Virus record (IMG/VR): IMGVR_UViG_3300027782_000139
Location: 1-45,094 of that record
Strand: one strand, 5' to 3'
DNA length: 45,094 nt
DNA from: a virus
In this document: one piece after another, positions 6,598-40,993 of the stretch
How the letters are laid out: every line of letters starts with the position of its first letter
Numbering within the stretch: the stretch's first letter is position 1
Notes under the pieces: model-generated
The model's database searches: none
What the model was told of the DNA's origin: nothing
The model's input: only the letters and a program-made list of their open reading frames with translations
Translations under genes and position numbers: made by a program

Positions 6598-6623
6598 GAG
6601 GGTCCTTCGGGACCCTCTTTTTT
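6598..6623 (+). terminator. Rho-independent terminator after gp23
   Basis: An 8-bp GC-rich stem, GAGGGTCC with GGACCCTC, closed by a stable TTCG tetraloop and followed by six T. It ends the morphogenesis operon. Confidence 0.95.
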
Positions 6624-6628
6624 ATGCA

Positions 6629-6636
6629 AATAAATA
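6629..6636 (+). promoter_or_regulatory. Late promoter (AATAAATA) before gp3
   Basis: AATAAATA, one base from the T4 late consensus, lies between the gp23 terminator and the next gene, 10 bases before its ATG. The leader would be very short. Confidence 0.4.
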
Positions 6637-7629: not shown

Positions 7630-9096
7630 ATGACTGACATTATTATCAAAAAGAAGAATGAAATTTTCCTCACAATAAAGGCAGAACCACATATATTTCA
7701 AGAATTGTCAGATCATTTTACTTTTGACATTCCTGGTGCAAAGTTTATGCCGCAGTATCGCAGTAAGCATTGGGATGGAAAAATAAGATTATTTTCTACA
7801 CATAATGGTGAGATTTATGTGGGTCTTTTGGATAAAATTATTTCTTGGGCAAAAAATCATCAATACTCAATTGAGTTTGAAAATAATAAATTTTATGGAA
7901 CTCCATTTGAAGAAAATGAGATGATCTCATATGAAGGAGTTTCTGATTATATGAATAAAATATCAAAACATAAACCAAGAGATTATCAAATTGATGCTGT
8001 TTATGATGCATTAAAATACAATCGTAAACTTTTAGTATCTCCCACTGCTTCAGGAAAATCTTTAATGATTTATTCTGTTGTTAGGTATTATATTGAATTA
8101 AGTAAAAGAATTTTACTTATTGTTCCAACAACTTCTCTTGTTGAACAAATGTATAAAGATTTTGAAGATTATGGATGGAATGCAGAAGAATATTGTCATA
8201 AAATCTATTCAGGTAAAGAAAAGATAACTGATCTTCCTGTAGTGATTACTACTTGGCAGTCAATATACAAATTAGATAGAAAATTCTTTAAAGATTTTGA
8301 AGTTGTAATTGGAGATGAGGCACATCAATTTAAATCAAAGTCTCTAATAAGCATCATGACCAAGTTGGATGATGCCAAGTATAGATTTGGTTTCACTGGA
8401 ACTTTAGATGGGTCACAGACGCACAAATGGGTCTTGGAGGGCTTATTTGGTCCTAGTTACAAAGTAACTCAAACAAAAGATCTAATTGATAAGGGTCATT
8501 TATCAAAACTACAAATTCGTGTTCTTTTATTAAAGCATGATGAACATCAATTTAATGATTATGAAGAAGAAATTCAATATCTTATCAATCATCAAAAAAG
8601 AAATAATTTTATTAAAAATCTTGTAATTGATTTAAAAGGAAATACATTGGTTCTTTTTAATCGTGTTGAATCTCATGGAACTCCTCTTTATGAGTTGATA
8701 AATAATTCAGTAGATAAAAATCGTAAAGTATTTTACGTTCATGGTGGAATAAGTACAGAAGAAAGAGAAAAAGTAAGAGAAATTACAGAAAAAGAAAGCA
8801 ATGCAATTATTGTTGCTTCTTATGGAACATTCTCAACTGGAATCAATATTAAAAATTTGCATAATGTAGTCTTTTCTTCACCAAGTAAATCTAGAATAAG
8901 AAATTTACAATCTATAGGCAGAGTTTTAAGAAAAGGGGATAGTAAAACCAAAGCTATTCTTTATGATATTGCCGATGATATTACATACAAATCAAAGAAA
9001 AATTATACGTTAAATCATTTAATTGAAAGAATAAAAATCTACAATGAAGAAAAATTTAACTATGAAATTATACAAGTTAATTTTAAAGAAAAATGA
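7630..9096 (+). CDS. uvsW: DNA/RNA helicase UvsW
   Basis: A superfamily-2 helicase, 488 residues, which unwinds R-loops and branched DNA and moves T4 from origin-dependent to recombination-dependent replication. The N-terminal DNA-binding domain (residues 1-110) is followed by the RDYQ Q-motif near 117, Walker A SPTASGKS (137-144), DEAH (229-232), FGFTGTLDG (motif III region) and the C-terminal helicase lobe with motif VI near QSIGRVLRKG. All catalytic motifs look intact. Its stop overlaps the start of the next gene. Confidence 0.95.
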   Translation: MTDIIIKKKNEIFLTIKAEPHIFQELSDHFTFDIPGAKFMPQYRSKHWDGKIRLFSTHNGEIYVGLLDKIISWAKNHQYSIEFENNKFYGTPFEENEMISYEGVSDYMNKISKHKPRDYQIDAVYDALKYNRKLLVSPTASGKSLMIYSVVRYYIELSKRILLIVPTTSLVEQMYKDFEDYGWNAEEYCHKIYSGKEKITDLPVVITTWQSIYKLDRKFFKDFEVVIGDEAHQFKSKSLISIMTKLDDAKYRFGFTGTLDGSQTHKWVLEGLFGPSYKVTQTKDLIDKGHLSKLQIRVLLLKHDEHQFNDYEEEIQYLINHQKRNNFIKNLVIDLKGNTLVLFNRVESHGTPLYELINNSVDKNRKVFYVHGGISTEEREKVREITEKESNAIIVASYGTFSTGINIKNLHNVVFSSPSKSRIRNLQSIGRVLRKGDSKTKAILYDIADDITYKSKKNYTLNHLIERIKIYNEEKFNYEIIQVNFKEK

Positions 9097-9482
9097 ACGA
9101 AGACTTTTACGCAGTTATAAAATTAATATCAGGTGAAGAAATATTTTCGCAAGTATGTTCTTGTGAAGAAAAAGATAAAACTATTTTAATTCTTGATACT
9201 CCAGTAGTTATTGAAACAATTAATATTCGTCAACTAGGAGTTAGCGCAGTTCGTGTTAATCCTTGGTTAAAATATGCAAATGATTCAGTTTTAGTTATTA
9301 ATATGGATAGAGTAATTACAATTACTGAAATAAATGATGAATCAATAATTAAAGTGTATAATAAATTCTTAAGAGATAAAGATAAAAAAACTTCTATGAG
9401 CAATATTACTCCCAATATGGGATTCTTATCATCTATTGCTGAAGCAAGAGTATCTTTAGAGAAGTTATACAAAAATACTTGA
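9093..9482 (+). CDS. Sm-like (LSm-type) small protein, copy A
   Basis: A 129-residue protein whose first 95 residues have a beta pattern resembling Sm/LSm folds: IKLISGEEIFSQV near the start, then ILDTPVVIE, then WLKYANDSVLVINMDRVITI. The pattern SGEE…P…W…D…I…D.V.TI.E recurs in the proteins at 18334 and 18626, so the three look paralogous. Sm-like domains often bind RNA, but no function is demonstrated here. It overlaps uvsW by four bases and ends at a divergent promoter region that may transcribe antisense into it. Confidence 0.55.
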   Translation: MNEDFYAVIKLISGEEIFSQVCSCEEKDKTILILDTPVVIETINIRQLGVSAVRVNPWLKYANDSVLVINMDRVITITEINDESIIKVYNKFLRDKDKKTSMSNITPNMGFLSSIAEARVSLEKLYKNT

Positions 9483-9521
9483 AGATATAGCTGATCTTCA
9501 ACCCTAACAGAGTGATTATAG
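9483..9521 (-). repeat. 39-nt promoter/leader element, copy 1 (minus orientation)
   Basis: Read on the minus strand this element begins at the -10 box TATAAT and continues about 30 bases into the transcribed region. It matches the plus-strand copy at 39879-39917 in 37 of 39 positions. Its 5'-distal part can form the hairpin GAAGAT/ATCTTC with a 7-base loop, followed on the minus strand by AAGTATTTTT, so a very short RNA ending near 9467 is conceivable. Confidence 0.85.
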
Positions 9522-9543
9522 ACAGATTCAAACTGTTTGTCAA
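9515..9543 (-). promoter_or_regulatory. Consensus sigma70-type promoter, antisense to copy A/uvsW
   Basis: On the minus strand there is TTGACA (9538-9543), a 17-base spacer and TATAAT (9515-9520), a perfect consensus host-type promoter. It points left, into the 3' end of the Sm-like gene and uvsW, which are coded on the plus strand. Confidence 0.7.
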
Positions 9544-9566
9544 CTACTTGATCTATGTGCTATAAT
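9537..9566 (+). promoter_or_regulatory. Promoter for gp55 operon
   Basis: TTGTCA (9537-9542), an 18-base spacer and TATAAT (9561-9566) preceded by TGC, which makes an extended -10. It lies 26 bases before gp55. Its -35 box overlaps almost completely the -35 of the minus-strand promoter. Confidence 0.75.
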
Positions 9567-9591
9567 GAACAAAGATTAATAAGACTTATAA

Positions 9592-10059
9592 ATGAAAGAA
9601 AAGAAAAAGAATCCTAATTATGTGAATAATAAAGATTTTCATGATGCATTGATTACTCATAAGAGAAGACTGGAAGAATCAAAAACTAATGGTCTTCCAC
9701 CACCAAGGATTTCTAATTATCTTGGCGATTGTTTTTTGAAAATTGCTACTCACTTATCATATCGTCCAAACTTTGTAAATTATATGTTTCGTGAAGATAT
9801 GATTTCAGATGGTGTAGAAAATTGTGTTCAATACATTAACAATTTTGATGTCAATCGTTCAAATCCATTTGCTTACTTTACTCAAATTGTTTGGTATGCT
9901 TTCTTAAGACGCATTTCAAGAGAAAAGAGACAAATGGAAATTAAAGAAAAGATTATTGAACGCAGTGGATTTGAAGAAGTGTTTACTGCTGATCAAGGAT
10001 TTAATAGATCAGATTATAATACAATTAAAGATAATATTCAAATTAAATTGAGTCAATGA
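9592..10059 (+). CDS. 55: Late-transcription sigma factor gp55
   Basis: A 155-residue divergent sigma-70-family protein (T4 gp55 is 185). It directs host RNA polymerase to TATAAATA late promoters, several of which occur in this window. The conserved core is visible as YLGDCFLKIATHLSYRPNF, MISDGVENCVQYINNFD and NPFAYFTQIVWYAFLRRI, matching sigma region 2, which binds the polymerase beta' subunit and the -10 DNA. The C-terminal clamp-binding tail is short. It has its own host-type promoter, and its stop overlaps gp47 by four bases. Confidence 0.95.
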   Translation: MKEKKKNPNYVNNKDFHDALITHKRRLEESKTNGLPPPRISNYLGDCFLKIATHLSYRPNFVNYMFREDMISDGVENCVQYINNFDVNRSNPFAYFTQIVWYAFLRRISREKRQMEIKEKIIERSGFEEVFTADQGFNRSDYNTIKDNIQIKLSQ

Positions 10060-11099
10060 AGATCGGTTTGATAACAGACAGTCATTATGGGTTCCGCAAA
10101 GCAAATAAATCTTTCCACGAGTATTTTGCTAAATTTTATGATGACATATTTTTTCCTACATTAGAAAAACGTAAAATCAAAACTGTCATTCATTTGGGTG
10201 ATGCTTTTGATAGTCGTAAAGGTGTTGATTATTGGGCTCTTGATTGGGCAAAGGAAAATGTTTATGATAGATTTCAAGATTTAGGAATTACTGTTTATAA
10301 TATTGTAGGAAATCACGATGCTTATTATAAAAACAGTAATGAAATCAATGCCATAGACACACTTCTTCAACAATATTTCAATGTAGTTAGAGTTTCTAAA
10401 CCAGCAGAATATATTATTGAGGGAATGAAAACTGTTCTTCTTCCTTGGATATGTGCTGATAATGAAAAAGAAACTTTTAAACTTCTTGAACAAACAGAAG
10501 CAAAAGTTGTTTTTGGTCATCTTGAACTAAATGGATTTACAGTTTATCCAGGTCAATATCAACAAGAAGGACTGGACAAAAAAGTATTTCAAAAGTTTGA
10601 TAGAGTTTATTCTGGACATTATCATACTCGTAGTGATGATGGAAAAATATTTTATCTTGGAAATCCATATCAAATGTTTTGGAATGATGTAGATGATATT
10701 AGAGGATTTAATATTTTTGATACTAATGAATATGAATTAGAAAAATTTGATAATCCATATAGTATGTTTGAAAGAATATATTATGATGAGACAGATTATA
10801 AGAAATTTGATACTTTATACCTAACAAATAAAATGGTTAAGATAGTTGTTAGAAAAAAAGAAGATCATTTGAAGTTTGATAAATTTATAGATAGTATACT
10901 TAAAGTTAATCCTTTAGAACTTAAGATAGTTGAAAATATTGATGTTTTTGATGATGATGTAGATTGTTCTGATATTACTACAGAAGATACATTAGGCATT
11001 TTGGATAAATATGTGCAAGAAGCAGACTTTGATTTAAATAAAGATATGGTCAAAAAACTTTTACGAGATGTATATAAAGAAGCATTAGAAATAGAATAA
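10056..11099 (+). CDS. 47: Recombination nuclease subunit gp47 (Mre11-like)
   Basis: The 347-residue calcineurin-like phosphoesterase of the gp46/gp47 complex, which resects DNA ends to start recombination-dependent replication and degrades host DNA. Metal-binding motifs are all present: DSH (residues 8-10), GDAFDSR (48-54), GNHDAYY (85-91) and GHYH in the second half. T4 gp47 is 339 residues. The start ATG overlaps the gp55 stop, and the stop overlaps the next start, so the operon is tightly coupled. Confidence 0.95.
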   Translation: MKIGLITDSHYGFRKANKSFHEYFAKFYDDIFFPTLEKRKIKTVIHLGDAFDSRKGVDYWALDWAKENVYDRFQDLGITVYNIVGNHDAYYKNSNEINAIDTLLQQYFNVVRVSKPAEYIIEGMKTVLLPWICADNEKETFKLLEQTEAKVVFGHLELNGFTVYPGQYQQEGLDKKVFQKFDRVYSGHYHTRSDDGKIFYLGNPYQMFWNDVDDIRGFNIFDTNEYELEKFDNPYSMFERIYYDETDYKKFDTLYLTNKMVKIVVRKKEDHLKFDKFIDSILKVNPLELKIVENIDVFDDDVDCSDITTEDTLGILDKYVQEADFDLNKDMVKKLLRDVYKEALEIE

Positions 11100-39850: not shown

Positions 39851-39874
39851 AGCACCTTGACAGGTGCTTTTTTT
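39851..39874 (+). terminator. Terminator overlapping a promoter
   Basis: AGCACCT/AGGTGCT stem with loop TGAC and a run of six to seven T. Its 5' arm and loop contain the -35 of the following promoter. Confidence 0.92.
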
Positions 39875-39885
39875 ATGACTATAAT
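39857..39885 (+). promoter_or_regulatory. Perfect consensus sigma70-type promoter
   Basis: TTGACA (39857-39862), 17 bases, TATAAT (39880-39885). The -35 lies in the terminator hairpin and the T run is inside the spacer. It reads toward the truncated GIY-YIG frame. Confidence 0.8.
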
Positions 39886-39917
39886 CACTCTGTTAGGGTT
39901 GAAGATAAGTTATATCT
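39879..39917 (+). repeat. 39-nt promoter/leader element, copy 2 (plus orientation)
   Basis: The same 39 bases as the minus-strand element at 9483-9521, with two mismatches (a and t here for c and c there). Similarity begins at the -10 box and does not extend to the -35 or the spacer. The 3' part can pair as AGATA/TATCT. Confidence 0.85.
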
Positions 39918-39924
39918 ATAAATA
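39917..39924 (+). promoter_or_regulatory. Late promoter TATAAATA after leader element
   Basis: A perfect late box overlaps the last base of the 39-nt element and lies 25 bases before ATG 39949, so the downstream frame has both a host-type and a late-type promoter. Confidence 0.55.
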
Positions 39925-39948: not shown

Positions 39949-40047
39949 ATGAGTTATGAAAACCCTTGGTTATATCAAGGAAAAGTTTTTGAGACAGAAG
40001 ATATTCAAGAGAATTTTGGATTTGTTTATTTGATAGAATGTTTGTAG
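39949..40047 (+). pseudogene. Truncated GIY-YIG protein N-terminus
   Basis: A 32-residue frame, MSYENPWLYQGKVFETEDIQ then ENFGFVYLIECL, stops where a GIY-YIG domain would continue (…FVYLIxN…KYIGKK). The piece up to the first beta strand matches full-length GIY-YIG-like proteins of related phages that begin MSYENPW. It ends ten bases before the 3' end of the opposite-strand nuclease gene, whose own N-terminus (EGFVYLITNLTNNKKYVGKK) shows the missing part. It is most likely the remnant of a resident gene. Confidence 0.65.
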
Positions 40048-40056
40048 AATGATAAA

Positions 40057-40914
40057 TCATTTAAACTCTTTTCTTTGTAAAATATCAATATTTCTATTTT
40101 TTTGATATATTGAAAGACCAGCAGCAGTAGAAATATATCCAGTGATTAAACATTCCCATAATTTTAAATTATGATTTATTTTATTTTTTATTGTTTTTAA
40201 ATTTATAGGATTTCCATCAACATAAAATATTTTATTTTTTTCTATTAATTCTATATACTTGTTCCAATGAATATCTTTTTCTTTCATGTAAGAAATTACA
40301 CTATCCCAAGTGTTAATTCCATCTGTTATTTGTTTTTTCCTTGATAAAAATAATTTTTCTTTATGTTCATCAGTAAGTTTTGAACCATACATAGGATTTC
40401 CTTCACCAGAAAACATTTCACTCAATCTTTGTCTAACTTCTGGTCTTTTTGCTGGATTATTATCTCCAATCATTCTATCTTTTACCAATTCTCTAAATTT
40501 ATCATTCCTTAATACTACTTCATATATTCCTGTTCTTTCACTTACAAAAAATCTTCCCTCAATATTTGTATTGTAGTATTCATCAGTCATTAATACATTT
40601 CGGTTAAATTGTTCATAGGTTTCATAATAAGACATAGATTTTTTATGAGCACATATGTATAATATTTCCCTTAAAAAATATTCTTTTCCAATCAAATTAA
40701 TATCTTCTTTTAATCCATCACAAGAACCATAATAATTTCTCCAATCACTTTCTTTCTTTTTTCTCCTTCCAGTTTTTCTATCTTTTTGACGAGTCCAAAA
40801 ATGTTTCTTGCCAACATACTTTTTATTATTCGTGAGATTAGTAATTAAATATACAAACCCTTCCATATTTTTTGGAATTTCAATAAAATCTTTTTCGTTA
40901 TATTTCCATTCCAT
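40057..40914 (-). CDS. GIY-YIG homing endonuclease with NUMOD3 motifs
   Basis: The only minus-strand gene I support in this window, 285 residues. Residues about 18-38 hold the GIY-YIG core (GFVYLITN…KKYVGKKHFW); ESDWRNYYGS and KEYFLREILYIC continue the domain, and YYETYEQ may supply the catalytic Glu. Residues about 150-195 contain NUMOD3 DNA-binding motifs (MIGDNNPAKRPEVRQRLSEM, GEGNPMYGSKLTDEHKEKL), and the C-terminal part has a further DNA-binding-like region. It has its own late promoter and a GGAAG ribosome site. Probably a mobile homing gene of Seg type. Confidence 0.85.
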   Translation of the reverse strand: MEWKYNEKDFIEIPKNMEGFVYLITNLTNNKKYVGKKHFWTRQKDRKTGRRKKKESDWRNYYGSCDGLKEDINLIGKEYFLREILYICAHKKSMSYYETYEQFNRNVLMTDEYYNTNIEGRFFVSERTGIYEVVLRNDKFRELVKDRMIGDNNPAKRPEVRQRLSEMFSGEGNPMYGSKLTDEHKEKLFLSRKKQITDGINTWDSVISYMKEKDIHWNKYIELIEKNKIFYVDGNPINLKTIKNKINHNLKLWECLITGYISTAAGLSIYQKNRNIDILQRKEFK

Positions 40915-40946: not shown

Positions 40947-40993
40947 GAAAATACTTTTGGTCTTTTGTGGTATAGAACACCATAAAGGATATG

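Follow-up and report, generated by a model that had tools for sequence, protein, structure and literature searches.

A divergent pair of sigma70-type (early) promoters lies where the uvsW/Sm-like unit adjoins the gp55-gp47-gp46 unit in a 45,094-nucleotide stretch of DNA from a T4-like phage of the Kyanoviridae type (IMG/VR record IMGVR_UViG_3300027782_000139, positions 1 to 45,094; this whole stretch is called the window below). One promoter points rightward to gp55, the gene for a late sigma factor homologue, and the other points leftward, back into the Sm-like gene and uvsW. Comparison with related phages shows that the leftward promoter is real rather than a product of chance and that it is kept by selection, and backward transcription at this site very probably matters. 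We consider the chances about even that this is the antisense member of an early promoter class, which would oppose the uvsW/Sm-like transcription unit and would also compete with gp55 by steric exclusion. If true, a fixed antisense promoter sits at the gp55 switch, and these phages possess a small class of promoters distinguished by a start-site element. The sunlit ocean is widely populated by T4-like cyanophages, whose early and middle transcription has been described as unclear in its timing (PMC2984593). The base-exact prediction of an antisense start, made for 149 of 149 loci, can be checked in any strand-specific infection data set.

Conservation of the leftward promoter

Both promoters are placed between the stop codon of the Sm-like gene (9482) and the start codon of gp55 (9592), where they share the -35 heptamer TTGTCAA (9537-9543). 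Read on the minus strand, this heptamer supplies the TTGACA (9543-9538) of the leftward promoter, which is followed by a 17-base spacer and TATAAT (9520-9515) and scores 12/12 in a promoter scan. Read on the plus strand, it supplies the TTGTCA (9537-9542) of the gp55 promoter, which has an 18-base spacer and TATAAT (9561-9566), scores 11/12, and carries TG one base ahead of its -10 box, forming the extended -10 element TGCTATAAT (9558-9566). A preliminary description of this DNA had proposed exactly this arrangement, and it is correct to the base. Its leftward start also agrees with standard sigma70 geometry, by which initiation would be expected at a G seven bases beyond the -10 box (9508, minus strand). 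The corresponding starts are predicted on the minus strand at about position 123698 of the Syn9 record (NC_008296.2) and about position 124805 of the P-SSM2 record (NC_006883.2). The rightward start would lie near 9573, about 65 bp away.

Sites resembling sigma70 promoters at the loose level of 9/12 are no commoner in the window (37) than in shuffled sequence (35.8), and the case that can be made from this single sequence thus depends on the high score. The stricter pattern TTGACA-N16..18-TANAAT occurs five times, compared with 0.58 (standard deviation (SD) 0.75) in shuffles; of the five, only that at 9515-9543 is read from the minus strand. Perfect promoters are rare in the antisense orientation in these genomes, as illustrated by the named phage Syn9, which has 10 in the sense direction versus 2 in the antisense direction.

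For comparative analysis, a first set of loci was assembled from 80 IMG/VR loci gathered by gp55 similarity and 15 named phages, making 96 loci with the window, and the upstream DNA was long enough in 94 of them. Within the 170 bp preceding gp55, 87 of these 94 have a best antisense promoter of at least 11/12, as do 24 of the 29 clusters formed at 85% gp55 identity, whereas this score is reached by 0.5-0.7% of shuffles and by 0.1-0.4% of antisense intervals elsewhere. When an exact TTGACA is required together with at least four of six -10 bases at a distance of 16-18 bases, an antisense promoter is present within 200 bp upstream of gp55 in 92/94 loci, versus 17/1880 shuffles and 16/3330 antisense intervals elsewhere in the same loci. 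A second, more distant set of 80 loci (64 new, 15 duplicates and one too short) gave a leftward promoter of at least 10/12 near gp55 in 62 of the 64 new members. In both exceptions (L334 and L357), as well as in one locus of the first set (L033), the promoter directly follows the Sm-like gene and is separated from gp55 by additional DNA.

Comparing this intergenic region among related phages had been suggested in the preliminary description as a check, and the union of the two sets yields 149 distinct loci, all 149 of which have a leftward promoter of at least 10/12 behind the Sm-like gene. The score is at least 11/12 in 120 of these, and the -35 box is TTGACA in 148. The 29 loci at exactly 10/12 mostly have TAGACT or TACACT as the -10 box, which is a weaker match. 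Even the Pelagibacter phage HTVC008M has the leftward promoter, with a score of 12/12. Among 24 cluster representatives with 17-bp spacers, we also observed that spacer positions 9-11 (about -21 to -19) form a conserved A-rich patch, reaching at most 1.4 bits at position 10; most of the spacer outside this patch is unconserved.

The leftward arm is the better-kept arm of the pair. The two promoters share the heptamer in 99 of 148 relatives, and plus-strand TTGTCAA is present in 135 of the 148 relatives whose leftward -35 box is TTGACA. In other loci (for example L003, L007, L017, L027, Syn9, P-SSM4 and P-SSM7) the gp55 -35 box is separate or crossed, and the leftward TTGACA is still perfect. 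Rightward, only 6/94 loci combine an exact TTGACA with four of six -10 bases. The leftward -10 box (9515-9520 in the window, minus strand) is TANAAT in most relatives, and its weakness sits in the third base, where T is rare. The leftward arm combines a perfect -35 with a weakened -10 and the gp55 arm shows the reverse; these opposite strengths fit a tuned pair.

The loci with inserted DNA are informative in this regard. In L334, the inserted gene begins three bases beyond TTGTCAAG, no rightward -10 box is visible in the sequence read, and the leftward promoter is intact. Since the leftward promoter is kept where gp55 has a separate -35 box or where DNA has been inserted, it is neither a mere by-product of the gp55 -35 box nor a sequence kept only to compete. 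The extra DNA between the divergent promoter and gp55 amounts to about 100 to 600 bp in L033, L334 and L357, and it opens with a forward open reading frame (ORF) in L033 and L334.

An inverted repeat at the expected start site

Directly past the leftward -10 box is a conserved block whose consensus on the leftward strand is AACTCTGTnAGGGTT, and whose representative in the window is the inverted repeat CACTCTGTTAGGGTT (9500-9514, minus strand). Neither this element nor its reuse elsewhere in the genome was part of the preliminary description. Across 90 loci, block position 6 (-1) is T in 98% and position 7 (+1, the expected start) is G in 86%. The two arms covary. Among 53 distinct blocks, a mean of 3.98 of five pairs are Watson-Crick, compared with 3.70 (SD 0.07) after arms were swapped among phages, and for 88 blocks the corresponding values are 3.91 and 3.35 (SD 0.06). 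In each case, 0 of 2000 exchanges reach the observed mean, although this procedure ignores relatedness, and the result should be taken as evidence and not as a probability. The perfect stems include AACTC/GAGTT, AACTT/AAGTT, AACCT/AGGTT, ACCCT/AGGGT, AACAG/CTGTT, ATGAG/CTCAT and, in HTVC008M, AGGCA/TGCCT. Not every locus conforms, and in 21 of the 88 blocks the number of pairs is below four.

Two readings of this repeat can be entertained, in that it might act as a hairpin on the transcript strand or as a site for a dimeric protein. An operator of one fixed spacing does not describe it cleanly, as the arms are 2-7 bases apart among relatives. In 46 stems with a single non-Watson-Crick pair on the leftward strand, that pair is T-G in 28 and G-T in three, never A-C or C-A, and A-G, G-G or T-T in the other 15. 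Furthermore, RNA folding prefers the leftward strand in 39 versus 6 of 49. The T-G and G-T pairs occurring without A-C or C-A, along with the folding bias, count for the hairpin. However, the expected start falls inside the loop, such that the first arm would be missing from an ordinary RNA, and DNA energies give a weaker strand bias (26 versus 12). Moreover, T instead of C in the first arm may simply suit the promoter.

We put forward only tentatively, as a possibility worth keeping in view, that the repeat is a new promoter element: a short transcript-sense hairpin at about -6 to +9 that would control escape from, or recognition of, a phage-specific early promoter class, the universal member of which would run antisense to uvsW and against gp55. 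Such a hairpin would form when the initially transcribing complex opens this stretch, or in the RNA if the start is located further upstream than predicted. Different inverted repeats were also seen near this position in some phages. The leftward -10 box TACACT of the Prochlorococcus phages P-SSM4 and P-SSM7 is overlapped by TACAC-N5..6-GTGTA, and P-HM2 has ACACT-ATG-AGTGT upstream of gp55.

The block is not confined to the gp55 junction. At least 120 loci carry it, comprising 118 from a scan of IMG/VR with a pattern that did not include the -35 box, the window and L038. Among the matches listed, there are at least 121 copies, of which 90 lie beside gp55, 26 are found elsewhere and 5 fall at contig edges. 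In these same listed matches, TTGACA stands ahead of the block in 90/90 gp55-side copies (at 16-17 bases) and in 24/26 of the others, and the -10 box is TATAAT in 10/90 of the former versus 16/26 of the latter. Behind the copies elsewhere stand GIY-YIG-type ORFs, a nuclease-like ORF with a weak RusA-like match, and small conserved ORFs, phrog_718 among them. When nine complete phage records were each compared with their own block, all matches with 0-1 mismatch were in promoter register, and block variants agree within a phage (AACACTG twice in Syn9, ACCTTTG twice in S-SKS1, AACTCTGCC three times in S-PRM1). By this same measure, P-SSM2, P-HM2, P-SSM7 and HTVC008M have the gp55 copy only. We conclude that the leftward arm belongs to a distinct promoter class, defined by TTGACA-17-TANAAT and the start-site inverted repeat.

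A late-type ATAAATA box follows within 45 nt in 11/26 of the forward copies and in 0/90 of the gp55-side copies among the matches listed, compared with 0.6% of random stretches, which hints at paired early and late promoters. The gp129 protein of S-PRM1 ('transcriptional regulator', phrog_385), encoded in the gene run behind one forward copy, was considered as a candidate regulator and set aside, as it gave only a sub-threshold BRK match.

The second copy in the window (39857-39900, plus strand) is oriented in the gene direction, with TTGACA, TATAAT at 39880-39885 and the identical start-site repeat at 39886-39900, so that 39880-39900 is an exact copy of the gp55-side block. Its TTGACA occupies the loop of the terminator-like sequence GCACC-TTGACA-GGTGC-TTTTTTT (39852-39874). 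Just downstream is a late-promoter-like box, CTATAAATA (39916-39924, plus strand), the motif core of which occurs at chance level in the window. The copy is upstream of a short ORF (39949-40047) that starts with MSYENPWLYQG, contains GFVYLIECL and ends after 32 codons, whereas the related ORFs of L159 and L162 have 149. On the minus strand, a 285-codon ORF (40057-40914) that also has a GFVYLI stretch converges on the short ORF, with a CTATAAATA box upstream at 40947. We take the GFVYLI-type sequence of the longer related ORFs, which have the same start and stand behind IMG/VR copies of the block, to be that of a GIY-YIG endonuclease, and the equivalent ORF of S-CREM1 is annotated GIY-YIG.

What leftward transcription might do

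The gene order in this part of the 45-kb contig is gp23, gp3-like, uvsY-like, uvsW, Sm-like, gp55, gp47, a small ORF and gp46, with names assigned from position by comparison with named phages, including Syn9 and P-SSM2. The gp55 region is similar to 396 phage records, nearly all from cyanophages. As the preliminary description indicated, an RNA initiated at the leftward promoter would be antisense to the Sm-like gene (9093-9482, plus strand; PF16243, phrog_471) and, further left, to the uvsW-type helicase gene (7630-9096, plus strand; its positional counterparts in Syn9, P-SSM2 and other phages are annotated uvsW or DNA helicase), and it would lead away from gp55 (9592-10059, plus strand).

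We propose that unmodified host RNA polymerase would start the leftward RNA near 9508 early in infection, in keeping with the sigma70 promoters ascribed to the early genes of cyanophages (PMC2984593). Antisense transcription would then enter the Sm-like gene and uvsW before the onset of late transcription and would keep both genes down. Where the promoters overlap, polymerase at one would exclude the other, and a tempering of gp55 would be a second consequence. T4 makes its UvsW from a late promoter, and the protein unwinds the origin R-loops from which early replication is primed (PMC3016281). By analogy with T4, holding uvsW down early would make sense. Opposing transcription behind uvsW may also be an old theme, since in T4 and five relatives the genes behind uvsW.1 run leftward and converge on uvsW.1 at a conserved bidirectional terminator (PMC1524935).

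Several points weigh against this proposal. The loci were gathered by gp55 similarity, and the association with gp55 is thus partly by design. The same block also drives forward genes, so the start-site repeat is not specific to antisense control. Leftward transcription itself is deduced from comparative sequence, and the RNA has no defined end, so that antisense action on uvsW, at least 400 bases away, is putative. The lateness of uvsW in these phages is carried over from T4, and the late box AATAAATA ahead of the gp3-like gene (6629-6636) represents a motif found at chance level and is separated from the start codon by only 9 bases. In the same neighbourhood, a strong terminator-like sequence, GAGGGTCC-TTCG-GGACCCTC-TTTTTT (6598-6623), stands behind gp23 and is followed at once by AATAAATA.

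No conserved terminator was found within 600 nt on the leftward path, a span in which the window and most cluster representatives have none. No conserved antisense ORF was found in the window and 26 other cluster representatives, where the longest antisense frames are 80 codons (with a TTG start) and 6-68 codons, respectively, with one of 109. Five weak pairwise matches among these frames are located opposite the Sm-like coding region. No Rfam family scored above its gathering threshold in 8900-10100, the best E being about 1. Lacking a conserved ORF or terminator, the leftward unit appears to be under selection for its promoter and start and not for its RNA body.

This bears on the suggestion in the preliminary description that the RNA ends near 9467, at a GAAGAT/ATCTTC hairpin and T run, as a defined small RNA of about 40 bases. 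The hairpin arms (9494-9499 and 9481-9486, minus strand) and the T run (9472-9476) are present in the window, spanning 9472-9499, but neither is kept in relatives and the predicted fold is no better than that of shuffles (z -0.47). A related sequence, GAAGAT..ATATCT, is found at 39.9 kb, where it lies in the mRNA leader between the forward copy and its ORF. These findings, together with the missing terminator, give no support to a role in termination and make a discrete antisense RNA of that length very improbable.

A different possibility is that the leftward promoter serves as a timer, mainly occupying polymerase and delaying gp55 until it is switched off, by a regulator at the repeat or by fading sigma70, whereupon gp55 would rise. 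The preliminary description had likewise emphasized competition with gp55. Mutual exclusion of the two promoters is expected on ordinary steric reasoning, the -35 box is shared in 99/148 loci, and the leftward -35 is perfect and the rightward one weaker. Moreover, overlapping divergent promoters act as a switch in plasmid pLS20 (PMC4207663), and bidirectional promoters of Escherichia coli show polymerase competition when one side is strongly active (PMC12825309). Nevertheless, the same study reports basal competition too weak to matter at the five E. coli promoters tested, and the leftward promoter persists in loci where the -35 box is not shared, where DNA has been inserted before gp55 (L033, L334 and L357) and where, as in L334, no rightward -10 box can be seen. 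Steric overlap stands, but as the reason for the leftward promoter we judge competition to be rather unlikely.

We regard two further explanations as improbable, and to a similar degree. The leftward RNA might form an R-loop primer for replication, which would explain a conserved promoter that has no ORF. T4 oriF and oriG indeed consist of a promoter and an A+T-rich unwinding element with little sequence homology (PMC3016281). However, neither raw nor detrended cumulative GC skew reaches an extremum at gp55 in any of Syn9, S-PRM1 and P-SSM2 (three of three), and the same promoter class precedes ordinary genes elsewhere. Alternatively, the leftward promoter might be an early promoter left over from a T4-like layout, in which genes behind uvsW run leftward, and its RNA would now be incidental. 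Spacers and repeat sequences turn over among these loci, yet the promoter is conserved in 149/149 and its -35 box is intact in 148, a pattern unlike drift.

Relation to known promoter and RNA systems

In the collection of literature searched, we found nothing on an antisense promoter at gp55; papers outside it, above all the published Syn9 transcriptome, were not covered. In T4-type phages, PeSL cassettes join an early promoter to a stem-loop terminator. The forward copy at 39.85 kb is similar, with its -35 box in the loop of a terminator-like stem. In contrast, the gp55-side copy has no such stem, and its conserved part is downstream of the -10 box, which sets it apart from these cassettes.

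Among antisense RNAs, CfrI of cyanophage S-PM2 (PMC2984593, PMC5931967) is also made by a T4-like cyanophage. However, it is an experimentally shown RNA of about 225 nt at psbA in one phage, whereas the gp55 site is elsewhere, is family-wide and is known from its sequence, and it does not provide the defined RNA with a terminator that marks a CfrI-like cis-antisense small RNA. The T4 origins oriF and oriG likewise involve a promoter close to recombination and replication genes, with a transcript that may be important as RNA. Those origins use MotA middle promoters and an unwinding element (PMC3016281), while the gp55 site is sigma70-type, is repeated at other genes and gives no skew signal.

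Closer parallels are offered by opposed promoters. The Pc and Pr promoters of pLS20 are mutually exclusive (PMC4207663), as would be expected at the gp55 site where bases are shared (99/148), but the second pLS20 promoter drives a regulator gene and the leftward phage promoter faces no conserved leftward ORF. The bidirectional promoters of E. coli and other prokaryotes described by Warman, Grainger and colleagues (PMC12825309) likewise consist of two sigma70 promoters facing opposite ways, only one of which can be occupied at a time. These share a symmetric -10 box, with starts commonly 10, 18 or 23 bp apart, whereas the gp55 pair shares a -35 box with expected starts about 65 bp apart, and so falls outside bidirectional promoters as Warman et al. 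define them. Unlike those promoters, the gp55 site is fixed across a phage family and has an added start-site repeat. We conclude that it is a new form of divergent, partly overlapping promoters, in which the -35 box is shared, the arrangement is family-wide, one arm faces no gene, and a start-site repeat marks membership of a small promoter class.
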